A DNA stretch of 23,088 bases from a virus: the IMG/VR virus record IMGVR_UViG_3300043465_000038, positions 1-23,088 of that record. One strand, written 5' to 3'. This document shows, one piece after another, positions 3 to 13,952 of this stretch. Positions within the stretch are counted from its first letter, which is position 1. The number at the start of each line of letters is the position of its first letter. Position numbers and translations under genes: made by a program. The notes below the pieces were generated by a model. It had not been told where the DNA came from, ran no database searches, and saw only the letters and a program-made list of their open reading frames with translations.

Positions 3-1292
3 CTGCTGGCTGACCCCAAAGCGCAACTGGCCCGTATCCATGAGTTCTTGGGACTGCCAGACTTCTCCTACGACTTTGACAACATTGACGGCTCTACGGT
101 GGCTGAAGATGACGAGAACTTGCACGGCCACGCTGGTATGCACGATGTCAAGCCAAAGCTGGAAGCCCAGCACAAGCAAGACCCCAAAGACCTGCTGAAG
201 TCTCACTACTCATCGTTCTGCCAGCCTGAGTTCTGGTTAGAAAAGCCCCGCACAGTCCCAGAGTTACATGCACTGGACTTGCAGCTTGCAGCGTCCACAA
301 CAGGCGACTTTACCGAAGGCTGGCGCTTGGCCCAACAATTGGAAGCAGACGAGCCAAACAATCACCGTGCCGCCTACAACCGTGGCTGGTACTACCTGCG
401 CCAAGGCCAGATCCAAAAGGGCTACCAGTTGATGGACAGGGGCCGTGTGGCTGGCGTGTTCGGCAACAAGCGTCCCGATGTGCCCACACAGCAGTGGGAC
501 GGTAAGAGCAAGGGCATCGTCCTGCTCAACCTTGAAGGCGGTCTGGGCGACCAGATCCACCAAGTGCGCTACGCCAAGTACATCGCGGCCAAGGGTTGCA
601 AGGTCATCGTGGCTTGCACTGGCTCACTCGCATCGCTGTTTGTTGATGTCGAGGGTGTGTCCTCAGTCATCCAGCACGAGGCAGTGTTTGGGGTTTACCA
701 TGACTTCTGGGTTGCTGGCATGTCGGCCATCGTCCATCTGGGCTTTGAGGTGCGGGACATCTCTGGCGCTCCGTACATCACCAAGCCAATCACCATCAAG
801 GGCCGCAAGAAGCGCATCGGCCTTCGCTGGCAAGGCTCGACCCAGTTTGAGCATGAGCATCACAAAGCCTTCCCATACGAGTTGATGTTCTCCGCTGTCA
901 AGGACGCAGATGCTGAGTTCATCAGCTTGCAACGTGACGCAGGCGTTGAGGCCGCTCCGGGTTGGGTTAAGCAGGTCAAGCTGGACACATGGGAAGACAC
1001 CCGTCAGGCAGCGGCAAGCTGCGACTTGGTTATCTCGTCATGCACCTCAGTGAGCCACCTAGCAGCCGCTATGGGCGTTGAGACGTGGGTGGTGACACCA
1101 GTCATGCCCTACTTCCTGCACTGCATGGACATTTATGCTGATGATGGTTTGGCATCTTGCATTTACTACAACGATATGCGACTATTCCGACAAGAAATGT
1201 TTGGCGAGTGGACGCACCCATTTGATGCTGTAAAAAGCAGTTTATCTAAGAAGTACGGTAGCAATCCGTTAAAACTTGTTGCATCGGCATGA
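3..1292 (+). CDS. Sulfotransferase-TPR-GT9-like glycosyltransferase fusion (5' partial)
   Basis: The reading frame is open to the left edge, so the gene begins outside the window; a TTG at position 48 is in frame but is not a likely start, because the codons before it encode sulfotransferase-like sequence. Visible order in the 429 residues: about 1-90, the C-terminal end of a sulfotransferase domain (pattern LLADPKAQL..IHEFLGLP); about 95-160, a TPR-like helical stretch (NNHRAAYNRGWYYLRQGQ); about 168-425, a Rossmann-type GT9/heptosyltransferase-like domain with LNLEGGLGDQIHQVRYAKY, then KRIGLRWQGS, FISLQRDAG and CDLVISSCTSVSHLAAAMG, which match the usual GT9 blocks. The TPR-GT9 arrangement is common in bacterial surface-glycan enzymes. 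The stop overlaps the next start as ATGA. The acceptor and the donor sugar are unknown; ADP-heptose is a reasonable candidate given the genes at 5970-8227. Confidence 0.8.
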   Translation: MLADPKAQLARIHEFLGLPDFSYDFDNIDGSTVAEDDENLHGHAGMHDVKPKLEAQHKQDPKDLLKSHYSSFCQPEFWLEKPRTVPELHALDLQLAASTTGDFTEGWRLAQQLEADEPNNHRAAYNRGWYYLRQGQIQKGYQLMDRGRVAGVFGNKRPDVPTQQWDGKSKGIVLLNLEGGLGDQIHQVRYAKYIAAKGCKVIVACTGSLASLFVDVEGVSSVIQHEAVFGVYHDFWVAGMSAIVHLGFEVRDISGAPYITKPITIKGRKKRIGLRWQGSTQFEHEHHKAFPYELMFSAVKDADAEFISLQRDAGVEAAPGWVKQVKLDTWEDTRQAAASCDLVISSCTSVSHLAAAMGVETWVVTPVMPYFLHCMDIYADDGLASCIYYNDMRLFRQEMFGEWTHPFDAVKSSLSKKYGSNPLKLVASA

Positions 1293-1909
1293 CCATAGCT
1301 CTTTACATTAAACGCCACGCAGATACTGGATTGAAGTATCTTGGCGTGACAACCAAAGACCCGTACATCTATTTGGGTTCTGGTTTGTATTGGATGGCGC
1401 ATTTGGAAAAACATGGCAGTCAAATGATGACGTGTGTGCTGGGCGAATTTGATGACATAGAAGAGTGCTCTCAAGTAGCTTTACAATTTTCAGCGGAACA
1501 TGATGTGGTCAATTCTGTAGAGTGGGCGAACCTCAAGCCAGAGAATGCCAAACAAGGCTGGGTTGCTGGTTTTCTACAAGAGCCAGAATCTATTGCAAAA
1601 AGAGTTGCAAAAAACACAGGCAAGAAACGTACCGAAGAAACCAAACGTAAAATATCCGAGTCTCGTCTTGGCGACAAGCATTGGTTGTATGGTGTATGTG
1701 GTGAAGATAGCCACTGGTTTGGTCGCAAACACACACCTGAATCCATCAAAAAAATGAAAGCCGTCAAGTCAGGCGCTAACCATCCAATGTTTGGTAAGAA
1801 ACGTCCAGAAGGCTTTGGGGCTGGTGAAAAGAATTCTTTTTTTGGGCGTAAGCACTCCGAAGAAACTAAACGGAAAATCTCCGCAGCCAAAATAAGGAGC
1901 GTTGCATGA
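1289..1909 (+). CDS. Free-standing homing endonuclease, GIY-YIG-like with NUMOD3 repeats
   Basis: The 206-residue protein has an N-terminal GIY-YIG-variant nuclease region (LYIKRHADTGLKYLGVT, then YIYLGSGLYWMAHLEKHG, then AEHDVV with the acidic residue and EWANLKPE). The C-terminal half carries repeated NUMOD3 DNA-binding motifs: NTGKKRTEETKRKISESRLG, HWFGRKHTPESIKKMK, HPMFGKKRPEG and SFFGRKHSEETKRKIS. Proteins of this type cut a specific DNA site and spread their own gene among related phages. It starts on an ATGA overlap with the upstream glycosyltransferase gene and ends on an ATGA overlap with the RCC1 gene, so it is an in-line gene and not an intron ORF. Its 3' end contains the AAGGAG ribosome site (1894-1899) of the next gene. 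The sequence looks more A+T-rich than the gene before it. Catalytic activity is not proven. Confidence 0.82.
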   Translation: MTIALYIKRHADTGLKYLGVTTKDPYIYLGSGLYWMAHLEKHGSQMMTCVLGEFDDIEECSQVALQFSAEHDVVNSVEWANLKPENAKQGWVAGFLQEPESIAKRVAKNTGKKRTEETKRKISESRLGDKHWLYGVCGEDSHWFGRKHTPESIKKMKAVKSGANHPMFGKKRPEGFGAGEKNSFFGRKHSEETKRKISAAKIRSVA

Positions 1910-3039
1910 GCTTTCGATACGCATCCGGTATAAATAAGCCGGGGTTCAATCCCTTGGCGGTGCAAGTCACGACCAATACTTATTTCCCGTATTTGTACGG
2001 CTGGGGTTTACAAGCCACATATGGGCAATTAGGGCTGGGCAACTTAACGGACTACTCATCTCCCAAACAAGTTGGTAGTCTGTCAAATTGGAAAAGTATC
2101 GTAAACGGAAGAGCTTTTACCGCGTCTGTTAAAACAGACGGAACTTTGTGGACTTGCGGCCAAAATAGTAACGGAGAACTTGGGTTAAATAATGCCACAA
2201 ATTATTCTTCACCAAAACAGGTTGGCGCGTTAACAACATGGCTTAATGTTGCCGCTGGAGATTATGCGTGTATTGCCACTAGAACGGACGGAACATTGTG
2301 GTCGTGGGGCCGTAATATTTACGGTCAATTAGGGCAGGGTAATACAACAAGCTACTCTTCACCCAAACAAGTGGGCGCACTAACAAGCTGGGTTACAGTT
2401 GCTGGCGGCTTGCGACATTTCTTGGCTATTAAAACAGATGGAACTATTTGGTCGTGGGGCTATAACCCGCAAGGTCAATTAGGCCTTGGCACGACAGCTA
2501 ACACTTCTAGCCCTGCACAAATTGGTTCGTTAACAAATTGGTCAAAAATTTCGGGCGGCAATTATCATTCGTTGTCAATTAAAACTGATGGCTCATTATG
2601 GGCTTGGGGCGGTGATGGAACGGGGCAATTAGGTCTTGGAAACACTACATACTATTCAAGCCCAAAGCAAGTTGGGTCGTTATTAACTTGGTATTCCATA
2701 GCGGGTGGCGCTCAAAATACAATTGCTACCAAAACTGATGGCACGCTTTGGGTATCCGGTAGTGGTTTGAATGGTGTGCTAGGTTTAGGCAATACAACAA
2801 GTTATTCAAGCCCCAAACAAGTAGGGTCTTTGACTAATTGGCTTAATACGGCTTGCGGTTTTTACACTACCGTTGTTTCAAAATCTGATGGGACTTTGTG
2901 GTCTTGGGGACTTAATGCTAATGGTCAATTGGGTTTGGGCGACACAACAAACCGCTCTAGCCCAGTGCAAATTGGTTCGTTGACAACTTGGTTGTCTGCC
3001 TCCACAAGCTATAAGTTCACCACTGCCCTTCTTTACTAA
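1906..3039 (+). CDS. RCC1-repeat beta-propeller protein, probable tail/adhesion protein
   Basis: After a short N-terminal leader (residues 1-25) the whole 377-residue protein consists of seven RCC1-type repeats of exactly 50 residues. The consensus is KTDGTLWSWGxNxxGQLGLGNTTxYSSPKQ followed by V-G-x-L-T-x-W and a glycine-rich turn. Seven repeats match a single closed seven-bladed propeller as in eukaryotic RCC1. No signal peptide or membrane segment is visible. A strong AAGGAG (1894-1899) lies six bases before the ATG. It is followed nine bases later by a second, related protein, and by a small tail-type protein, so a virion surface role such as receptor binding is likely but inferred. Its relation to chromatin RCC1 is at the level of fold only. 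Base composition looks more A+T-rich than that of the flanking metabolic genes. Confidence 0.78.
   Translation: MSFRYASGINKPGFNPLAVQVTTNTYFPYLYGWGLQATYGQLGLGNLTDYSSPKQVGSLSNWKSIVNGRAFTASVKTDGTLWTCGQNSNGELGLNNATNYSSPKQVGALTTWLNVAAGDYACIATRTDGTLWSWGRNIYGQLGQGNTTSYSSPKQVGALTSWVTVAGGLRHFLAIKTDGTIWSWGYNPQGQLGLGTTANTSSPAQIGSLTNWSKISGGNYHSLSIKTDGSLWAWGGDGTGQLGLGNTTYYSSPKQVGSLLTWYSIAGGAQNTIATKTDGTLWVSGSGLNGVLGLGNTTSYSSPKQVGSLTNWLNTACGFYTTVVSKSDGTLWSWGLNANGQLGLGDTTNRSSPVQIGSLTTWLSASTSYKFTTALLY
1981..3036 (+). repeat. Seven tandem 150-bp RCC1 blade repeats (array 1)
   Basis: The KTDGT-like codons that open blades 2-7 fall at 2131, 2281, 2431, 2581, 2731 and 2881, exactly 150 bases apart with no insertion or deletion. 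The first unit (about 1981-2130) is divergent at its start. Units share segments at DNA level, mainly those encoding GQLGLG, SSPKQ and KTDGTLW, and differ at the loop codons. Confidence 0.9.
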
Positions 3040-3048
3040 AAGAACACC

Positions 3049-4479
3049 ATGCCAGTAACCTCAACAATCACAGGCGTCCAATACTCAGGCATCTGGAGTC
3101 TCGCGGGTCAAGCTAACGCTAAGGCGTTGGAGACTTGGCCCAGCCCACCCGGTGCGCCAACAATTGGTACTGCTACGGCTGGAAACGGGAACGCATCTAT
3201 AACCTTTACGGCCCCTACTTATGCGGGAATCCCGGCACTAATCACGGGTTACACGGCTACATCAAGTCCCGGAGGTTTAACGGGTACTGGGACGGCGTCT
3301 CCAATTGTAGTTAGCGGCTTGTCAAACGGAACCGCCTACACCTTCACCGTAACAGCGTCAAACGCTTCGGGCGCTGGCCCAGCTAGTGCGGCAAGTAACA
3401 GTGTCACGCCCAATGCGGCACAATTGTGGACATGGGGTTCTGGCGCTACTGGTCAGTTAGGTTTGGGCAACACCACGTATTACTCAAGCCCAAAACAAAT
3501 TGGGTCACTGACTACGTGGGAAACTATTTTTAGTCAGCCAAATGCTTATGCTAGGTCAAACGCAATTAAAACAGACGGCACTTTATGGGTCTGGGGCATT
3601 GGTACTAATGGTCAGTTGGGCTTAGGAAGCACCGCAAGCCGCTCATCGCCAAACCAAGTTGGCGCGTTGACTAATTGGCTTTCTGTAGCCAGTGGTGAAT
3701 ATTTCACCGTTGCAACGCAAACAAATGGAACGCTTTGGTCATGGGGCAAAAATAACCAAGGACAGTTGGGTCTTAATAACGCAACATATTACTCATCGCC
3801 TAAACAGATAGGTGCGCTAACAAGCTGGTATATTGTTGTTGCGGGGCAGGCGTTTGCTGTTGCCACTAAAACAGATGGTACGTTATGGTCGTGGGGGGAA
3901 AATGGAACAGGCCAATTAGGGTTGGGTAATATAACCAGTTACTCTAGCCCCAAACAAATTGGCGCTCTTACTAATTGGCTTAAGGCTGCTATTGGCAGCA
4001 ATTTTTCTGCCGCCCTTAAAACAGACGGCACGTTATGGGCTTGGGGAAATAACTCTTCTGGTCAGTTGGGGTCGGGCAATACAACTTCCCGCTCTAGCCC
4101 GGTACAGATTGGGGCGCTTACTGCTTGGGCAACTATTAATGTAGGCTCTAATTTTACCATCGCCTCCAAGACTGATGGCACACTGTGGTCGTGGGGCAAT
4201 AACTTTTATGGTCAGTTAGGCCTTGGAAACACAACCTACTATAGCTCTCCCAAGCAAATAGGTGCGTTGACGACTTGGTCACAAATTGCCACTGGATCAG
4301 ACTTTACTGGGGCCATTACAACAGGTGGTGCTTTTTATGCGTGGGGTAGCAACCAATACGGAAGATTAGGTCTTGGAAATACAACTGACCGCTCTTCTCC
4401 GACTCAAGTTGGCGCGTTAACCACGTGGTCAAGGGTCGGTGCCAACCGCGATTCAATGACTGCTTTCAAAGCCCCGTAA
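3049..4479 (+). CDS. Fn3-RCC1 beta-propeller protein, probable tail/adhesion protein
   Basis: This 476-residue protein has an N-terminal segment (1-31, with ITGVQYSGIWSL and a TWP ending), an Fn3/Ig-like domain (about 32-122, with PGAPTIGTATAGNGNASITF, ALITGYT and SNGTAYTFTVTASN), and seven RCC1 repeats of 50 residues (about 125-476). The last blade is degenerate at its opening (TTGGAFYAWG). Fn3-like domains are frequent in phage tail proteins, which supports a surface-exposed role. It lies nine bases after the previous RCC1 gene, and the blade arrays of the two proteins are clearly homologous, so this pair probably arose by duplication followed by addition or loss of the Fn3 part. The ribosome site is weak (AAAAGA at 3039-3044 region), which suggests coupling to the upstream gene. 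Confidence 0.78.
   Translation: MPVTSTITGVQYSGIWSLAGQANAKALETWPSPPGAPTIGTATAGNGNASITFTAPTYAGIPALITGYTATSSPGGLTGTGTASPIVVSGLSNGTAYTFTVTASNASGAGPASAASNSVTPNAAQLWTWGSGATGQLGLGNTTYYSSPKQIGSLTTWETIFSQPNAYARSNAIKTDGTLWVWGIGTNGQLGLGSTASRSSPNQVGALTNWLSVASGEYFTVATQTNGTLWSWGKNNQGQLGLNNATYYSSPKQIGALTSWYIVVAGQAFAVATKTDGTLWSWGENGTGQLGLGNITSYSSPKQIGALTNWLKAAIGSNFSAALKTDGTLWAWGNNSSGQLGSGNTTSRSSPVQIGALTAWATINVGSNFTIASKTDGTLWSWGNNFYGQLGLGNTTYYSSPKQIGALTTWSQIATGSDFTGAITTGGAFYAWGSNQYGRLGLGNTTDRSSPTQVGALTTWSRVGANRDSMTAFKAP
3418..4476 (+). repeat. Seven tandem 150-bp RCC1 blade repeats (array 2)
   Basis: Blades 2-7 open at 3568, 3718, 3868, 4018, 4168 and 4318, again exactly 150 bases apart. The unit is the same as in the array at 1981-3036. 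The consensus here favours PKQIGALT where array 1 uses PKQVGSLT, so the units within each gene resemble each other more than those of the other gene in that segment. Confidence 0.9.
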
Positions 4480-4511: not shown

Positions 4512-4901
4512 ATGGCACTTTATGTTCGCATCCAAAACAACGAAGTTACAGACTGCTGGGACACCCCACCACCAGCGGGTCAAGACGGTTGGAAATCAGC
4601 CGTTGAAGTCCGTCCAGCTATCACAGCGCACCGTCAAGGCTACACGGCCCACACGTTTGACCTGACCACTGATCCAGTGCAGATTGTGTACGGCACCTAC
4701 GACATCCCAGTTGAAGACCGCAAAGCTGGCATGAAAGCCAACGCTTCGTTCAGCTTCCAGCAAGTTGTCCAAGAGCAGATGCGCAATCCAGCAACCTACG
4801 ATCCTGCTGCTGTTGCCGCTGCACAAGCTGCCATCGCTCCTAGAGTCGCCGCCATCGAAGCTGCCACAACTCATGATGAACTTGATGCGCTGATGGCATG
4901 A
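4512..4901 (+). CDS. Small tail-associated protein, possible tail-fibre assembly factor
   Basis: The 129-residue protein begins ALYVRIQNNEVTDCWDTPPP, has a central PVEDRKAGMKA segment and ends in an alanine-rich helical region closing with THDELDALMA. This layout, with a short N-terminal beta part that reads 'x-V-x-I-x-N-N-E-V', a DRK-containing middle and a helical tail, resembles small proteins encoded just after tail fibre or spike genes in many phages. I do not recognise a catalytic motif. Its position right after the two RCC1 proteins suggests it helps assemble them, but this is inferred from context. The stop overlaps the next start as ATGA. Confidence 0.55.
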   Translation: MALYVRIQNNEVTDCWDTPPPAGQDGWKSAVEVRPAITAHRQGYTAHTFDLTTDPVQIVYGTYDIPVEDRKAGMKANASFSFQQVVQEQMRNPATYDPAAVAAAQAAIAPRVAAIEAATTHDELDALMA

Positions 4902-5749
4902 AAAAAATCTTAATCATGGGCCTGCCCGGTTCGGGCAAGACTTTTCTTGCAACGGCGCTGAAGAAGTACCTTGAAGAAAACTCCAATGTAAACACTATGC
5001 CGTTAGAGCGAATGTTGCATTTGGAGTTGCCACCAATTGCATACACCAGCAAAGTAGACTGGTTCAACGCTGACGAAATCCGCAAGCGCTTTAACGACTG
5101 GGACTTTTCCAAAGAGGGTCGCATTCGTCAATCGCTACGCATGGCAGAGTTTGCGCTGAAGTCCACTGGCGACTATGTAATCTGTGACTTTGTAGCCCCC
5201 TTGGTTGAGATGCGTAACAACTTTAAGGCCGACTGGACTGTGTGGGTAGACACCATCGAGCAGAGCCGGTTTGATGACACCAACAAGGCGTTTGTTCCAC
5301 CAGAACAGTACGACTTCAGGGTCACTGAGCAAGACGCCGAGAAGTGGGCAGAGTTCATTGGTCGGCACATCCTTGACGAACGCCGCCGCCCCGTGTTTGA
5401 TTGGAAGAAAGAAACCGTGCAGATGCTAGGCCGCTGGCAACCGTGGCACAAAGGCCATCGTGCGTTGTTTGACAGGGCTATCGCCAAGACGGGTCAAGTG
5501 GTCATTCAGATCAGGGATTGCCAAGGCTGGAACGGCTCCAATCCTTTTGAAAAGACTCAAGTCGAACAGCTTATCAAGCGCGATTTAGACCCGTTGTACC
5601 AAGGGCAGTACATTGTGCAGCTAGTCCCAAATGTGACAAACATCACCTATGGCCGAGACGTTGGCTACAAGATTGAGCAGGAATCGTTTGACGATGCTAC
5701 TCACGCCATCTCTGCAACCAAAATACGAAAAGAGATGGGTATTGAATAA
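4898..5749 (+). CDS. P-loop kinase (APS-kinase-like) fused to HxGH nucleotidyltransferase
   Basis: The N-terminal domain (about 1-165) has a Walker A motif GLPGSGKT at residues 8-15, and FNADEIRKRFNDWDFSKEGR followed by RMAEFAL, a pattern close to adenylylsulfate (APS) kinases and related P-loop kinases. The C-terminal domain (about 175-283) is a nucleotidyltransferase: LGRWQPWHKGH with the HxGH motif at 184-187, NPFEKTQ, and ISATKIR near the C terminus, the second nucleotide-binding signature. GRxQPxHKGH is most like the NadM/NadR type of NMN adenylyltransferase. The domain order (kinase first) is opposite to NadR and the same as in animal PAPS synthetase, although the transferase part is far smaller than ATP sulfurylase. 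Substrates are therefore unknown. It starts on an ATGA overlap and sits at the head of the sugar-nucleotide cassette. Confidence 0.75.
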   Translation: MKKILIMGLPGSGKTFLATALKKYLEENSNVNTMPLERMLHLELPPIAYTSKVDWFNADEIRKRFNDWDFSKEGRIRQSLRMAEFALKSTGDYVICDFVAPLVEMRNNFKADWTVWVDTIEQSRFDDTNKAFVPPEQYDFRVTEQDAEKWAEFIGRHILDERRRPVFDWKKETVQMLGRWQPWHKGHRALFDRAIAKTGQVVIQIRDCQGWNGSNPFEKTQVEQLIKRDLDPLYQGQYIVQLVPNVTNITYGRDVGYKIEQESFDDATHAISATKIRKEMGIE

Positions 5750-5966
5750 ATACCATGTTCGCTTTAACACCAAACATGATGGCTCAGAATTGGTGTGGCG
5801 TATCTTTGAGAATGGTGCCGAACATCTCGCCTCTGATGTAAGAATCATTGGCGAGACTTTTACAGAGTGTACTCACGAGCACGGTGAGACCAAATGGAAC
5901 ATAGCATGTAAAGGCAGGCTGGTCTGGGTGGACAAGGTTGCCGTTATCGTGACAGACAAGGACTAG
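5742..5966 (+). CDS. Small conserved-looking phage protein of unknown function
   Basis: The frame is open back to 5649, but the likely start is the TTG at 5742, preceded by AAGAGA at 5729-5734. This gives a 74-residue protein (MNKYHVRFNTKHDGSELVWR onward) overlapping the previous gene by eight bases, in line with the other junctions here. It is soluble, rich in beta-prone residues, and has a central ECTHEHGETKWNIACKG segment with two cysteines and two histidines. There is no signal peptide or membrane helix. I do not recognise a characterised family. Sitting between a nucleotidyltransferase and the HldE-type genes, it may be a partner of one of them. Confidence 0.6.
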   Translation: MNKYHVRFNTKHDGSELVWRIFENGAEHLASDVRIIGETFTECTHEHGETKWNIACKGRLVWVDKVAVIVTDKD

Positions 5967-5969
5967 GTA

Positions 5970-6368
5970 ATGACCACGGTCTTCACCAACGGCTGCTTTG
6001 ACATTTTGCACAGGGGCCATGTGGAGTACCTTGAGCAGTCCCGTGCATTGGGCAACAAGTTGATTGTTGGACTGAACTCGGACGCATCGGTGCGCAGGTT
6101 GAAGGGGTCTGAGAGGCCTATCAACAACCAAGAAGACCGCAAGGCTGTTCTGCTGGCGTTGCGCAGTGTCAGCGCCGTTTACATCTTTGAAGAAGACACG
6201 CCATACGAGCTAATCAAGCGTCTCAAGATAGACTTGATAACCAAGGGCGGCGACTATCTACCAGACCAAGTAGTTGGCAACGACATTGTAAAAGTTGCTA
6301 TCCTTCCGTACCTTAAAGGCCACTCAACGACTGGGATGATCTATGCGATTAACGGGAACCGTGACTAA
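5970..6368 (+). CDS. hldE2/rfaE2-like: HldE C-terminal-type (RfaE2) heptose-1-phosphate adenylyltransferase
   Basis: The 132 residues align along their whole length with the adenylyltransferase half of E. coli Hld[18 protein letters not shown] with HxGH at 14-17, [40 protein letters not shown] and a closing GHSTTGMI (STT at 119-121) matching the second nucleotide-binding motif. The known reaction transfers AMP from ATP to D-glycero-beta-D-manno-heptose 1-phosphate to give ADP-heptose. Both nucleotide-binding motifs are intact, so activity is plausible. It is encoded separately from its kinase partner (6693-7403), as in bacteria with split RfaE1/RfaE2, but in reversed order and with a cupin gene between. 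AAGGA at 5958-5962 lies seven bases before the ATG. Related transferases use CTP, so the exact nucleotide should be held open. Confidence 0.88.
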
Positions 6369-6705
6369 GGGCTGGGGCAGCGAAACCATTTGGGCAACCA
6401 ATGATCTGTACTGCGGCAAGCTGCTGAATTTCAATACTGGAGCCAAGTTCTCCATGCACTTTCATGCCGTCAAGGATGAGACTTGGCATGTGCAGAGCGG
6501 CAAGTTTAAAGTCATCATCATTGACACCAAGACCGCCAAGCGGTTTGTGCATGTTCTTAACGTAGGCGATACGTGGCACAACCCGCCCATGCTTCCTCAC
6601 CAGCTTGTCTGCGTTGAGGCTGGCAGCATCATTGAAGTTTCTACTGCGGATTCTGTGGAAGACAACTATCGAGTAGAAGCTGGAGATAGTCAATGCGCGT
6701 CCTAG
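6343..6705 (+). CDS. Cupin-fold protein, phosphosugar isomerase-like
   Basis: This 120-residue single-domain cupin has motif 1 as [12 protein letters not shown] (metal ligands H39, H41, E46) and motif 2 as PPMLPHQLV (H86), so all four usual metal ligands are present. It ends with a [13 protein letters not shown] segment. It resembles the cupin part of type II mannose-6-phosphate isomerases. The chosen ATG gives a 26-base overlap with the previous gene; an in-frame GTG at 6361 would shorten it by six residues and cut the overlap to eight bases, and either may be right. It lies between the two HldE-type genes, so a role in making or isomerising the same sugar is likely. No cupin belongs to the textbook ADP-heptose pathway. 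Confidence 0.75.
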
Positions 6706-7403
6706 TCATTGGTGATGCCTGCATAGATGAGTACCGCTACGGCGAAATCCGGAGAGTAAATCCCGAATCGTCTGCGCCCTTGCTAACATTTGTCCGCACC
6801 GAAGAGCGGCTGGGCATGGCGTACAACGTAGCTGCCAACCTCAAATCTTTTGGAGTTACCGCCCATGTGCGCGTACCGTCCGAGATGTCCCGCAAGATTC
6901 GGTACGTAGATCTACGTACCCAAGACCACTTGCTGCGCGTAGACCATGATGTTGAGCCAGAGCCGTACACGGTTGAGGCCGCTTACGACTATGACGCCAT
7001 AGTGATCTCAGACTACGACAAGGGCTTCGTTACAGATGAGGTGATCCACGCTATCAGAGCGGCGTTTAAAGGGCCGATCTACATGGACACCAAGAAGCCC
7101 AATCTAGGTGACTTTCCCAGCATCTACATCAAGATCAACGAGCGAGAGTTGTTTGAGTCAACCTCCCTACCAGACCCAGAGATGCTGATCGTGACCTACG
7201 GAGCCAAGGGCGCGGGGCATCTCAAGCAACTGCATCGTGCGCCAGCAACTGAGGTGGTCGATGTCTGCGGGGCTGGCGATGTGTTCTTGGCCGCTCTGGT
7301 TGCCAATCACCTTGAGACTCAAGACATGGACGCCGCCATCCAGTTTGCCAACGAGAAAGCCGCCAAGTCCTGCACCTACATGGGAACGGTATGCGTATCC
7401 TGA
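6693..7403 (+). CDS. hldE1/rfaE1-like: HldE N-terminal-type (RfaE1) PfkB-family heptose-7-phosphate kinase, compact
   Basis: The protein starts [20 protein letters not shown] and carries NPESSAP, ERLGMAYNVAANL, ISDYDKGF, DTKKPN, KINERELF, TYGAKG and VVDVCGAGD, all matching the kinase half of HldE in order; D196 of GAGD (193-196) is the expected catalytic base. The known reaction is phosphorylation of D-glycero-D-manno-heptose 7-phosphate at C1. At 236 residues it is much shorter than the roughly 310-320 residue bacterial kinase domain: about 40 residues appear to be missing between GVTAHVR and SRKIRYV, about 25 before LIVTYGAKG, and the C-terminal end is trimmed. The core active site is intact. 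GGAGA at 6682-6686 sets the start. A perfect 20-base palindrome lies inside it at 6901-6920. Its stop falls 13 bases after the start of hldD. Confidence 0.83.
   Translation: MRVLVIGDACIDEYRYGEIRRVNPESSAPLLTFVRTEERLGMAYNVAANLKSFGVTAHVRVPSEMSRKIRYVDLRTQDHLLRVDHDVEPEPYTVEAAYDYDAIVISDYDKGFVTDEVIHAIRAAFKGPIYMDTKKPNLGDFPSIYIKINERELFESTSLPDPEMLIVTYGAKGAGHLKQLHRAPATEVVDVCGAGDVFLAALVANHLETQDMDAAIQFANEKAAKSCTYMGTVCVS
6901..6920. repeat. Perfect 20-bp palindrome inside the kinase gene
   Basis: The arms are GGTACGTAGA and TCTACGTACC, which are exact reverse complements with no spacer; the flanking bases (C on both sides) do not extend the symmetry. It codes for RYVDLRT at the point where the kinase rejoins the HldE alignment after its first large deletion. 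It could bind a dimeric protein or form a cruciform, or be a chance event. Confidence 0.85.
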
Positions 7404-8227
7404 TTACGGGTTACAAGGGCTTTATCGGGCAGAACATGGTCAAGGCCTTGGCCGATCACGAGCTATCCCTGTATGAGTGGGGCGAGCCTGCCTACAACCT
7501 AGTTGGTCTGGACATGGTCATTCACCTTGGCGCGATCTCAAACACTCGCTGCCAAGACTGGCCTGCGCTCAAACAGCAGAACGTGGACTTCACCACTACC
7601 CTAATGGAGCGCTGCCAGAAGTACGAGATCCCGCTACAGATTGCCTCATCAGCCTCGGTCTACGGCCCAGAGAACACCACGTTCAAGGAGTCTGACTCAG
7701 TAGCCCCAGCCAACATGTACGCTTGGTCAAAGGTTCTGGTGGAGCAGTATTTTCATGAAATGACGCCGACCTCGCCCGTGCAATTGTTCAGGTACTTCAA
7801 CGTCTACGGCCCACATGAAGACCACAAGGGTGACCAAGCCTCCCCATTCCACAAGTTTAGGGAACAGGCCAAGACTGGGGTAATCAAGATTTTTGAGGGC
7901 AGCGCAGACTTTAAGCGTGACTTTGTGCCGGTGCAGACGGTCATTGACGTACACAAGGCGTTTTTCAATGTGCCCAAGTCAGGCATCTGGAACGTAGGAA
8001 CGGGAGTTGCCAGATCGTTCCTGTCTGTGGCTGAAGAGATTGGCGGCCCTATTGTTGCGGTGCCTATGCCTTCTGATTTAAAATCAACCTACCAGCGTTA
8101 TACCCAAGCAGACCTTGAAGAACTACACCAAGTGCTAGGTGACCACTATGATAGATCCGCTAACAGCCCTTGCAGGCATACAAGCAGCAGTTGCGCTAAT
8201 CAAAAAGGTCAGCAAGACTGTCGATGA
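7391..8227 (+). CDS. hldD-like: ADP-glycero-manno-heptose 6-epimerase (HldD/RfaD-like)
   Basis: This is an extended short-chain dehydrogenase of the HldD type. Its NAD(P)-binding motif is GYKGFIG (7-13). Catalytic elements are SSASVYG (86-92), YAWSK (Y110, K114) and HKGDQAS, whose K146 matches the second catalytic base K178 of E. coli HldD. Further HldD-specific blocks are FRYFNVYGP, FEGSADFKRDF, SGIWNVGTG and YQRYTQADLEEL. The known reaction inverts C6 of ADP-D-glycero-D-manno-heptose to the L-glycero form used for LPS core. At 278 residues it is shorter than the 310 of E. coli. After about residue 252 the sequence stops matching HldD, and the final 26 residues are encoded by DNA that also encodes the next gene in another frame, so the usual terminal helix is lost or replaced. 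Confidence 0.88.
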   Translation: MRILITGYKGFIGQNMVKALADHELSLYEWGEPAYNLVGLDMVIHLGAISNTRCQDWPALKQQNVDFTTTLMERCQKYEIPLQIASSASVYGPENTTFKESDSVAPANMYAWSKVLVEQYFHEMTPTSPVQLFRYFNVYGPHEDHKGDQASPFHKFREQAKTGVIKIFEGSADFKRDFVPVQTVIDVHKAFFNVPKSGIWNVGTGVARSFLSVAEEIGGPIVAVPMPSDLKSTYQRYTQADLEELHQVLGDHYDRSANSPCRHTSSSCANQKGQQDCR

Positions 8228-10230: not shown

Positions 10231-10279
10231 CATATAAACGGCGCATGCTGAATCAGCGGCTAATACCCATGGAGTGTAT

Positions 10280-10912
10280 ATGAGCTATAGCATGACGTAC
10301 GACAGCTTGCTGGTAGACGTGCGGCGCTACCTTGAGCGTGGTTTCACGCAAGATAGCGACCAGATCGTCTACGACCAACTGCCTAGGTTGATCACATTGG
10401 GCGAGCGCAGGATTGCGCGAGAGCTTAAAATTCAGGGGTTCATCCGAGCGGTGAGTACCCCTTTATCCGTTGGCGTGGCTGTCTACCTGAAGCCTGACCG
10501 CTGGCGCGACACAATCAGCATGACTGTCAACGGATCGCCTATCTTTGCTCGGGCCTACGAGTATTGCCGCAGCTATTGGCCGAACGAGGCCCAGACTGCC
10601 GCGCCTCAGTTTTATGCTGACTACGACTACCAGAACTGGTTGATCACCCCAACACCTTCTACGGTACAAACTCTTGAGATTTTGTACTACGAACAACCCG
10701 CCCTTTTGGGCGATGACTTACAAACCAACTATCTCACTGAATACGCCCCTGATGTGTTGCTGTATGCAACCTTGCTTGAGGCTACCCCGTTTCTTAAGAA
10801 AGACGAGCGTATCCAGACGTGGCAGATGATGTATGACCGTGCGGCGCAGGCTCTCAATGGCGAAGACCTCAAGCGCATCATGGACCGCTCAGCAAATAGG
10901 AGTGAAGCGTAA
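10280..10912 (+). CDS. Phage adaptor (head-tail/neck) protein, P22 gp4-like role
   Basis: GGAG at 10271-10274 lies five bases before the ATG at 10280; the in-frame GTG at 10274 overlaps that site and is rejected. The 210-residue protein begins MSYSMTYDSLLVDVRRYLER and shows DQIVYDQLPRLITLGERRIA, LKPDRWRDTISM, YEYCRSYWP, YADYDYQNWLITPTP, YYEQPA and YAPDVLLYATLLEATPFLK. This series matches proteins annotated as phage adaptor in podovirus-like genomes, which join the portal ring to the tail. The gp10-like gene two positions downstream fits this. It is the first gene after the candidate promoter. Confidence 0.75.
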   Translation: MSYSMTYDSLLVDVRRYLERGFTQDSDQIVYDQLPRLITLGERRIARELKIQGFIRAVSTPLSVGVAVYLKPDRWRDTISMTVNGSPIFARAYEYCRSYWPNEAQTAAPQFYADYDYQNWLITPTPSTVQTLEILYYEQPALLGDDLQTNYLTEYAPDVLLYATLLEATPFLKKDERIQTWQMMYDRAAQALNGEDLKRIMDRSANRSEA

Positions 10913-12117
10913 TGCCTATCTACACAGACGTCTTTGGTGGCGCAAACATTTACCCGAGCGAGATTAGCTATAGCGCTATCACGCTGACTACTACGGATGT
11001 GACGCTGAGTTGGCCCGAGGAAACTAGCACCAGCACCAATCTTGCGACCCGCATCATTGATGTAACGGCCACTACCGCAGGGCGGTCAATCTTTTTGCCA
11101 GACGCGCAAAAAAGTGGCGTTGGCAACACCATACTGTTCAACAACCAAGGCGCTCAAACTTTTGTAGTTAAGAACGCTGGCGGCACGCAAGTTGTTTCAA
11201 TTGCCGCTGGAACGGTTTGGCAAGTCTATTTGACAGACAACACCACCACAAATGGTTTGTGGGAATCGCTTCAATTTGGAGCCACGGTATCTACTGCTAA
11301 TGCATCTGCTTTGGCAGGCACTGGCATTGTGGCTGTGGGCACGCTGTTGTCTCAGTCTGTGCCGATCACCAACTTTAATTCAAACTACATTGCAGGCGAT
11401 TCAGACCGCGCCAAAATGTACTTGTGGACCGGATCAGGGTCAGGCACCTTGACACTGCCTAGCGCAGCTACAGTGGGCAACAACTGGTTCATGTACTTGC
11501 GCAACTCGGGTGGCGGTCAAGTCACGCTGACACCTTCTGGCGTCAACACAATTGATGGTTTGGCGACAAAAGCCTACCAGCCAACTGAGTCGTCGGTGAT
11601 CATCAGTGATGGCACAAACTTCTACACACTAGGGTTTGGTCAGGCTTCTGTCTTTGTGTTTGACTACACAGTGATCAGCGTTGCGGGAACTGGAACCTAC
11701 ACGCTAACCGGATCAGAACTGAATCGTATTGTTTACAAATTTACAGGTGCGCTAACGGGCACTAGGGTTGTGATTGTCCCCGCCACTGTCCAGCAGTATT
11801 GGGTTGATAACGCGACAACTGGCGCTTACACACTCACCGTTAGGACTTCTGCTGGAACTGGTGTTGCAGTCGCACAAGGCTCACGAGGCATTTATTACTG
11901 CGACGGCACTGATGTTGTTGATGCAGATAGCGCAACTTCAAGTTTTCCAATTACGGTTGCTCAAGGCGGCACAGGCGCTACCACAGCAGGCGGCGCACTG
12001 ATCAATCTTGGTGGAACTGCGGTTGGTATCCCTATTTTTGAAGCGGCTAACCAACAAGCAGCTTGGACTGTTTTGGGTGTTGCGCCAGCAGGTGTTGTAA
12101 ATGGCGGGACTTATTGA
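10912..12117 (+). CDS. Fibre-like structural protein
   Basis: The 401-residue protein is rich in Thr, Ser, Gly and Val with little charge, as expected for beta-helical or fibre proteins. It contains two or three similar modules of the kind 'x-x-I-F-L-P-D-A...GNTILFNNQGAQTFVVKNAGG' (about 60-110) and 'LTLPSAATVGNNWFMYLRNS' (about 180-200) with a following 'GTNFYTLGFG'. Near the C terminus is ITVAQGGTGATTAGGALINL, a motif very common in phage tail fibres. It has a TAATG junction with the adaptor gene and TAGGAG at 10897-10902. It may be a tail fibre, a head decoration or a neck-attached fibre. Confidence 0.62.
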   Translation: MPIYTDVFGGANIYPSEISYSAITLTTTDVTLSWPEETSTSTNLATRIIDVTATTAGRSIFLPDAQKSGVGNTILFNNQGAQTFVVKNAGGTQVVSIAAGTVWQVYLTDNTTTNGLWESLQFGATVSTANASALAGTGIVAVGTLLSQSVPITNFNSNYIAGDSDRAKMYLWTGSGSGTLTLPSAATVGNNWFMYLRNSGGGQVTLTPSGVNTIDGLATKAYQPTESSVIISDGTNFYTLGFGQASVFVFDYTVISVAGTGTYTLTGSELNRIVYKFTGALTGTRVVIVPATVQQYWVDNATTGAYTLTVRTSAGTGVAVAQGSRGIYYCDGTDVVDADSATSSFPITVAQGGTGATTAGGALINLGGTAVGIPIFEAANQQAAWTVLGVAPAGVVNGGTY

Positions 12118-13952
12118 TGCCAGAATCCACAATAGTCCTGAAGTCCCTGCCCGGTATCAAGCGAGATGGTACTAGGTACGATGGTGACTTTTACATTGAC
12201 GGACAGTGGGTCAGGTTTCAGCGCGGACTGCCGAGAAAAGTTGGGGGGTATCGCTCCATCAACAAGTACTTAACAGAAATCTCTCGCGGTTTTAATAGTT
12301 TTACTCAACAAAGTTTGCAGTATTGCCACTCGGCGGGTGCATCAACTGTTGAGCGTTTTACGATTGATAGCACAAAGAATAGCTCGGTTATCAGCAACCG
12401 CACCCCAACAGGTGTTGCGGCAACGGGGACTGTAACTTTGACCGGTGGTGGGGCTGGATCGGTTAACAGCATCACAGTCAACGGTGTGACGATCACATCA
12501 GGCGCTGTTGCGTTTGCAACTGACTTGCCTACAACTGCGACTGCTGTTGCGGCAAATATCACAGCTTTTGCATCTACACCAAATTACTCTGCGGTAGCCG
12601 TTGGCGCTGTAATCACCATCACAGCTTCGACTGTTGGTCAGGCTACAAACGGATTTGTGGTGGTAGCTAACACCACCACAATCACAACCACAGTGACAAA
12701 CATGGCTGGTGGCTTAAACACCATAGCTAGTTCTATTTACAACCAGTGGATGTTCCAGACATCGTACGACGCATCAACCACATACAACTCCATCATTGCG
12801 CACGTGGCTCCTAATTTGCAGTGCGTGTGCAATGACACTGGTGGTCAGATTTTCTATGGTGATGTGCTTGGAACTGCACCACTGGTAGAGATTCCACTGC
12901 CTGCCGGAGCAAATGTTACTGGCGGCATTGTGATGCTGTTCCCGTACCTGTTTTATTTTGGTACGGCAGGAATTGTGGGTTGGTCAGTTGCTGGTGACTT
13001 CACCGATCTAAGCGGCTCAGGCTCAGGCATAGCCCGTGTATGGGGTCAAAAGATCATCAAGGGTATGCCACTGCGTGCAGGCTCTGGGTCAGCGCCTGCG
13101 GGTATATTTTGGGCGTATGACGCTGTGATTCGTGCAACTTTTGCTGGTGGGTTGACTGTATTTCAGTTTGACGTAATTGCCACAGACACATCGATCATGT
13201 CGCCTGACTGCGTGGTGGATTACGACGGTGTGTTTTTCTGGTGCGGTGTTGACCGATTCTTAATGTTCAACGGCGTGGTGCGTGAAGTTCCTAACCAAAT
13301 GAACTTGAACTACTTCTTTGACAATGTCAACCCAAATCATCGCGCTAAAGTTTTTGCATTCAAGGTGCCGCACTTTGGCGAGATCTGGTGGTGTTATCCA
13401 CGTGGTGACGCCACTGAATGCACCCACGCCATTATTTTTAACGTGCGCGAGAATACTTGGTACGACACAGAGCTGCCTGCGTCTGGACGAGCTTCCGGCG
13501 GCTACAACAATGGCTTTGCCGCGCCCCTGTTAACGGACTGCATTCCTGCGACAAGTGGCTATCGTGTGTGGATTCATGAGCAAGGTGTTGACGCAATTGA
13601 GGGTCAATCAACATTGCCAATTCAATCGTATTTTGAGACAGCAGATTTGTCCGCATTGCCACAAGGCAAGAACGAGTATTTGCGGATCACAGAAATTGAG
13701 CCTGACTTTGTTCAAAACGGGCCTATGACCGTTCAGGTCACAGGACGGGCTAACGCTAGAGCGCCTGAAGTCTCCAGTAGCGTGTTCTCATTTCCTGAGA
13801 CAGCCTCAGAGCCTTACCAGCAGATTGTGATGCTTAAAGAACAACGCCGCGAGTTGCGTGTGCGCTTTGAGTCAAACGCCGTAGGCGGTGATTACCAAAT
13901 GGGCCAGATTATTGGGCACATTGATTCTGGCGATAAGACGGTGCTTGGATGA
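12117..13952 (+). CDS. Packaged-DNA stabilisation protein (P22 gp10-like tail hub)
   Basis: The frame is open from 12063, but the ATG at 12117 forms a TGATG junction with the previous stop and begins a sequence typical of the family: LKSLPGIKRDGTRYDGDFYI, DGQWVRFQRGLPRKVGGYR. The 611-residue protein continues with blocks such as SIYNQWMFQTSYD, VWGQKIIKGMPLR and DCVVDYDGVFFWCGVDRFLM. In P22, gp10 plugs the connector and joins the adaptor to the needle. Residues about 100-201 look like an inserted Ig-like or repeat domain (TGTVTLTGGGAGSVNSITV to MAGGLNT) rich in Thr, Val and Ala. The remaining parts would form the usual beta-rich core. Its position after the adaptor supports the call. Confidence 0.72.
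   Translation: MPESTIVLKSLPGIKRDGTRYDGDFYIDGQWVRFQRGLPRKVGGYRSINKYLTEISRGFNSFTQQSLQYCHSAGASTVERFTIDSTKNSSVISNRTPTGVAATGTVTLTGGGAGSVNSITVNGVTITSGAVAFATDLPTTATAVAANITAFASTPNYSAVAVGAVITITASTVGQATNGFVVVANTTTITTTVTNMAGGLNTIASSIYNQWMFQTSYDASTTYNSIIAHVAPNLQCVCNDTGGQIFYGDVLGTAPLVEIPLPAGANVTGGIVMLFPYLFYFGTAGIVGWSVAGDFTDLSGSGSGIARVWGQKIIKGMPLRAGSGSAPAGIFWAYDAVIRATFAGGLTVFQFDVIATDTSIMSPDCVVDYDGVFFWCGVDRFLMFNGVVREVPNQMNLNYFFDNVNPNHRAKVFAFKVPHFGEIWWCYPRGDATECTHAIIFNVRENTWYDTELPASGRASGGYNNGFAAPLLTDCIPATSGYRVWIHEQGVDAIEGQSTLPIQSYFETADLSALPQGKNEYLRITEIEPDFVQNGPMTVQVTGRANARAPEVSSSVFSFPETASEPYQQIVMLKEQRRELRVRFESNAVGGDYQMGQIIGHIDSGDKTVLG

Follow-up and report, generated by a model that had tools for sequence, protein, structure and literature searches.

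Seven-bladed RCC1 propellers as probable tail adhesin tips of an environmental phage and their genetic linkage to a glycosyltransferase

RCC1 repeat proteins of phages currently carry the annotation of chromosome condensation regulators and are classed with DNA metabolism, but the evidence points to tail adhesins. Mass spectrometry is reported to have placed the RCC1/ATS1-type protein GAP_001 of phage GAP32 among the structural proteins (PMC5259590). In Pseudomonas phage PollyC, which emerged as a BFVD match, an RCC1 protein has an N-terminal match to the T7 tail fibre (PF03906, E = 6.7e-5, just under the cut-off) and its gene follows that of an internal virion protein, while in LIBA6276 and the Synechococcus phage BUCT-ZZ01, grown on S. 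elongatus PCC 7942, the RCC1 genes lie near annotated tail-fibre genes. Here we analyse a 23,088-bp stretch of viral DNA (IMG/VR virus record IMGVR_UViG_3300043465_000038, positions 1 to 23,088; hereafter the window), in which two adjacent plus-strand open reading frames, ORF1 (positions 1906-3039, 377 amino acids) and ORF2 (3049-4479, 476 amino acids), encode RCC1 proteins close to a gene for a putative glycosyltransferase (GT). The most convincing reading of ORF1 and ORF2, which we regard as likely, is that they encode exchangeable adhesin tips on the tail of a short-tailed phage.

Fourteen matches to PF00415, seven per gene, were found in ORF1 (E = 9.5e-72 for the gene) and ORF2 (E = 2.2e-76; blades at about 3415-4476), all of them above the Pfam cut-off with E values from 1e-15 to 2.5e-8 and far beyond chance, in agreement with the two adjacent seven-blade genes of a preliminary description made from the sequence. 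Seven blades are also the rule among relatives, being present in 196 of 211 distinct complete RCC1 reading frames at the loci that we fetched. AlphaFold2, run on alignments of locus-derived relatives, returned a confident closed propeller for ORF1 (predicted local distance difference test score, pLDDT, 89.5; predicted template modelling score, pTM, 0.87), with 28 strands arranged as seven blades of four, and not a non-propeller fold; the ORF2 model (pLDDT 86.9, pTM 0.76) contains an FN3 domain plus a propeller. Both propellers are thus predicted with high confidence to close as seven-bladed rings. The top Foldseek match of the propeller in the PDB was UVR8 (6xzl; E = 8.7e-36, TM-score 0.85, 347 columns, 30% identity), with RCC1 and HERC domains ranking after it, and the viral fold matches of ORF2 in BFVD were RCC1 phage proteins.

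The preliminary description had also taken an exact 150-base spacing of the blades, with no indels between blade openings, as a sign of selection. The spacing holds for ORF1, in which all six intervals are 50 residues; in ORF2 the signatures are 53, 50, 50, 50, 50 and 50 residues apart, the first interval being 159 nucleotides, so that neither the exact spacing nor the absence of indels extends to this gene. In addition, blade 1 of ORF1 carries a one-residue insertion relative to other blades (WGLQATYGQLG versus WGxNxxGQLG). An interval of 50 residues was the commonest among 194 related seven-blade proteins (840 of 1164 intervals), but intervals of 45 to 64 residues occur among these relatives and exact spacing is therefore not a constraint; as proof of selection it was rejected, since the family tolerates this range and the window itself has an interval of 53. 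Larger RCC1 arrays occur elsewhere: on a viral contig of 82 kb (G041), at least 11 separate genes for seven-blade RCC1 proteins lie within three 20-kb stretches (L189:8235-9368, L190:4614-14701 and L191:255-12281), and another record (G038) has a very long RCC1 frame of 57 blades in 3368 residues (L100:1-10104) and further frames of up to 5169 residues.

The N-termini of the two proteins connect them to a larger set of tail-type genes. ORF1 begins with an anchor of about 28 residues (type B, MSxRY..GFNPL; 1906-1989), which is modelled with low pLDDT and is common to the first genes of both RCC1 pairs and pairs with other tips. ORF2 begins with a different anchor of about 33 residues with a short predicted helix (type A, YSGxWxxxxQxxAxxxxWP; 3049-3147), followed by an FN3-like stalk domain (3148-3420; PF00041, E = 3e-5, just below the cut-off) that has seven beta strands in the model. 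When the anchor and FN3 domain of ORF2 were used as a query, more than 500 related stretches were found in viral contigs, and behind this same N-terminus stood RCC1 propellers, Gly_rich_2, Lcl_C, DUF7483 or SBBP domains. The DUF7483 tip matches PHROGs named virion structural protein and tail fiber protein. As in tail fibres, a conserved N-terminal attachment part is joined to differing C-terminal tips, and the usual gene order is type B first and type A second. In the sister phage L032, whose adaptor, stabilisation and related genes are about 92-96% identical to those of the window, the same lysis and adaptor genes are preceded by three anchor-A genes with Gly-rich tips, of which two also include FN3. 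Nine loci, three of them with RCC1 tips and six with tips of other kinds, have a tail-fibre-like gene ahead of the anchor-B gene at a distance of about 420 bp. No match to the anchor plus FN3 was obtained in cultured phages by tblastn, for which the low-complexity filter is possibly to blame. An alternative tip at L146:3992-5188 consists of 'TTGNATDFGDL' repeats, matches no Pfam family except FN3 and is possibly another propeller.

Variation within and between the propellers is unevenly distributed. Amino-acid identity between blades of one protein averages 50-57%, and synonymous divergence between blades (pS) is close to that of codon-shuffled sequences (0.694 versus 0.735 in ORF1; 0.765 versus 0.783 in ORF2), indicating that the blades did not arise by recent tandem amplification. 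Nonsynonymous divergence between blades (pN) rises from 0.12-0.23 at scaffold positions to 0.62-0.67 at variable ones, the two classes being taken from a family alignment that includes copies of ORF1 and ORF2. Among 1358 blades, positions 8, 13, 16, 26, 28, 30, 35 and 50 are constant in at least 97%, and the most variable positions include 9, 11, 12, 37 and 42-46. Because the four strands of a blade are antiparallel, loops 1-2 and 3-4 should lie on one face of the propeller, opposite loops 2-3 and 4-1'; with faces assigned in this way from strand topology rather than model coordinates, mean entropy is 2.00 bits for the first pair of loops and 0.83 bits for the second, and a distant clade differs in the same direction (2.39 versus 1.75 bits). 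The fixed scaffold with changing faces proposed in the preliminary description is consequently supported by the pN contrast and by the clustering of variable positions in the loops of one face among relatives, although not by the exact spacing offered as evidence for it. The tips also diverge faster than the GT enzyme: where the GT is 80-90% identical to that of the window (12 contigs), the best RCC1 match reaches only 49-63% identity. Apart from identical copies, the nearest relatives of the RCC1 genes in the collections share about 63% identity.

Taken with the anchors, these patterns suggest how the proteins could work. The short N-terminal peptide, of type B in ORF1 and of type A with an FN3 stalk behind it in ORF2, would attach the protein to the tail or a fibre, and the C-terminal propeller would be an exchangeable tip that binds the host surface through the variable loops of one face. 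Receptor binding by the propellers is indirectly supported, by tip exchange plus the tail-fibre and virion precedents, and by analogy both proteins would be expected in the virion. Some observations weigh against an adhesin role. The loop variability could be neutral, the PHROGs category of RCC1 phage proteins is DNA, RNA and nucleotide metabolism, and a role in ordering DNA has been suggested for the eleven RCC1-like proteins of phAPEC6 (PMC7247149). The latter two, together with the binding of nucleosomes by eukaryotic RCC1, structures of which are among the Foldseek matches, would fit proteins that have DNA or a host factor as their target within the cell or capsid. Such a function appears quite unlikely, because the anchor and FN3 are common to tips other than RCC1, the PollyC protein is fused to a tail-fibre N-terminus, the best fold match is UVR8 and not RCC1 itself, and the genes are linked to a glycosyltransferase. 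We also consider it improbable, if somewhat less so, that the propellers have no role in receptor recognition and serve the virion as structural spacers or decoration proteins. Tandem multiplication, as in the at least 11 seven-blade genes of L189-L191 on one 82-kb contig, and the long multi-propeller proteins would be in keeping with spacers, but the propellers occupy the same place and carry the same anchor as Gly-rich and Lcl_C tips, diverge faster than their neighbours and concentrate their variability on one face.

A second feature of the locus, overlooked in the preliminary description together with the FN3-like domain ahead of the ORF2 blades, is the linked glycosyltransferase. The window opens inside this gene (3-1292, plus strand), which retains the end of a sulfotransferase domain, a short tetratricopeptide repeat (TPR) region and a GT9-like domain. 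In full-length relatives a sulfotransferase domain (Sulfotransfer_3, E = 5.5e-16 in L121) is accompanied by weak matches to TPR and by a C-terminal part with a weak resemblance to GT9 heptosyltransferases; the latter match is below the Pfam and NCBIfam cut-offs (PF01075, best E = 0.01, in four of 11 members; TIGR02193 heptosyltransferase, best E = 0.016, in three of 11), and a comparison of the GT part with the PDB gave no credible match. When viral contigs were searched with the C-terminal part, RCC1 genes, nearly all of seven blades, adjoined or flanked it in 79 of 80 loci, the sole exception being a contig that begins inside the GT gene. The typical order is RCC1, RCC1, GT, RCC1, (RCC1), small gene, kinase and sugar cluster. 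A second search, from the BUCT-ZZ01 GT of a distant clade (33% identical), placed RCC1 genes, mostly encoding long proteins, within 1 kb in 67 of 80 loci, and three of the four cultured or named phages that match the GT part in an annotated phage collection have RCC1 beside it. In a collection of bacterial and archaeal genomes, mostly metagenome-assembled, the 20 GT relatives that we grouped as closest (L367-L385 and L412) include 14 with RCC1 nearby, and the more distant ones have none. In L385 and L412, Planctomycetota contigs of at least 2 Mb, an RCC1 gene directly adjoins the GT relative. The RCC1/GT pair may therefore exist outside phages. By comparison, at anchor loci GT was present at none of 75 with other tips and at all four with RCC1 tips (Fisher test, 6.7e-7). 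These frequencies (79/80, 67/80 and 14/20, versus 0/75) represent the stable genetic linkage characteristic of a dedicated adhesin-glycosyltransferase pair, and a limited check of open-licence papers on RCC1, tetratricopeptide and phage found no description of a pairing of RCC1 with a glycosyltransferase. Two further papers (PMC10218006 and PMC12906663) were set aside because the matching words in them are names of genes and strains.

This linkage leads us to propose, tentatively and at somewhat less than even odds, that phages and some bacteria share a module in which RCC1 propeller adhesins are decorated by a dedicated TPR-glycosyltransferase, to which a sulfotransferase is fused in one phage clade. 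The sulfotransferase-TPR-glycosyltransferase would work with the propellers, probably as the enzyme that modifies them, and its activated sugar, perhaps of the heptose type, may come from the downstream sugar cluster. If so, the tail tip would bear a glycan made by the phage, on which host recognition or shielding would depend. The linkage counts take in related contigs rather than independent events, with flanks of differing length, and many phages whose RCC1 proteins are more distant lack a neighbouring GT. Moreover, RCC1 genes with and without GT in reach (n = 6 without) did not differ in Ser plus Thr content (0.233 versus 0.239) or in the frequency of NxS/T, and enrichment of these residues was accordingly dropped as a sign of glycosylation. 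A possibility that we take seriously, while still doubting it, is that the host surface is what the GT and sugar cluster modify, for instance as a block to superinfection, and that their proximity to the adhesins reflects only a shared host-interaction island. GT9-like enzymes and heptose-type genes usually act on lipopolysaccharide, which favours this explanation, as does the retention of the sugar cluster downstream of many RCC1 pairs. It fits poorly with the presence of GT at RCC1-tip loci and its absence from other-tip loci, and with the finding that, both in two distant clades of phages and in contigs from bacteria, GT lies beside RCC1 genes or between them.

The remaining plus-strand genes of the region lie on either side of the RCC1 pair. 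Between the GT gene and ORF1 lies a NUMOD3 homing-endonuclease-like gene (1289-1909; PF07460, E = 1.4e-26; PHROG homing endonuclease), whose start and stop overlap both neighbours; it is found at the same site in L121/L207 and L208 and is missing from most relatives. Downstream of ORF2, a small gene with no family match in Pfam or PHROGs (4512-4901) comes after the final RCC1 gene in the majority of relatives and adjoins RCC1 in most GT/RCC1 contigs, where it is up to 94% identical; our guess is that it encodes an assembly (tail-fibre) chaperone or a modification helper. It is followed by the activated-sugar (heptose-type) cluster (4898-8227), in which Pfam identifies a P-loop kinase/nucleotidyltransferase, a cytidylyltransferase-like protein, a cupin, a PfkB kinase and an NAD epimerase. 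This cluster resembles ADP-heptose synthesis and is kept downstream of many RCC1/GT modules, with its gene order conserved in L207, L210, L213 and others. The late structural genes (10274-13952) include an SU10-type adaptor (PF24175, E = 5.6e-25), a tail-fibre-like gene and a stabilisation-type structural protein, with PHROGs matches and relatives in Caulobacter phage GB2A and LUZ24-type phages. The late-region setting named in the preliminary description is confirmed by the genes downstream of the RCC1 pair, namely those for an M15 peptidase, the adaptor, the fibre-like protein and DNA ejection, and the place is the same in L032, L039 and L223.

With an adhesin role, a large number of environmental phage genes would need a new annotation, and a propeller scaffold would join those used for host recognition. 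Phage enzymes are known to glycosylate virions in mycobacteriophages (as cited in PMC12619734), and the new point here is the GT/RCC1 linkage. Since RCC1 is paired with one glycosyltransferase family in bacterial contigs as well as in two distant clades of phages, glycosylation of phage tail tips becomes directly testable.

Three groups of known systems are closest to the window proteins. Like the RCC1-like domains (RLDs) of UVR8, HERC proteins and RCC1 itself, they have seven four-stranded blades in a closed propeller, a repeat of about 50 residues and Pfam matches to RCC1 and RLD; unlike these, they have nearly uniform blades, an N-terminal anchor plus FN3 and no more than 30% identity to any of the solved structures listed, and there is no reason to expect exchange-factor, chromatin-binding or light-sensing activity of them. 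With tail fibres and receptor-binding proteins that have exchangeable tips, such as the T7-like fibre of PollyC, they share conserved N-terminal attachment, a variable C-terminal tip and a late-region position, but the anchor in the window is a short peptide with an optional FN3 domain, the genes form a pair of types B and A, and the tip is a complete seven-bladed propeller. Finally, the dedicated adhesin glycosyltransferases, such as TibC and Aah with their autotransporters and HMW1C, likewise involve a repeat-rich adhesin gene linked to one glycosyltransferase, and the GT9-like resemblance and adjacent heptose-type genes recall heptosyltransferase adhesin systems, as a lead only. The pair in the window differs from them in being phage-borne, in having a propeller as the partner and a sulfotransferase fused to the enzyme in one clade, and in that modification of the adhesin is here proposed.

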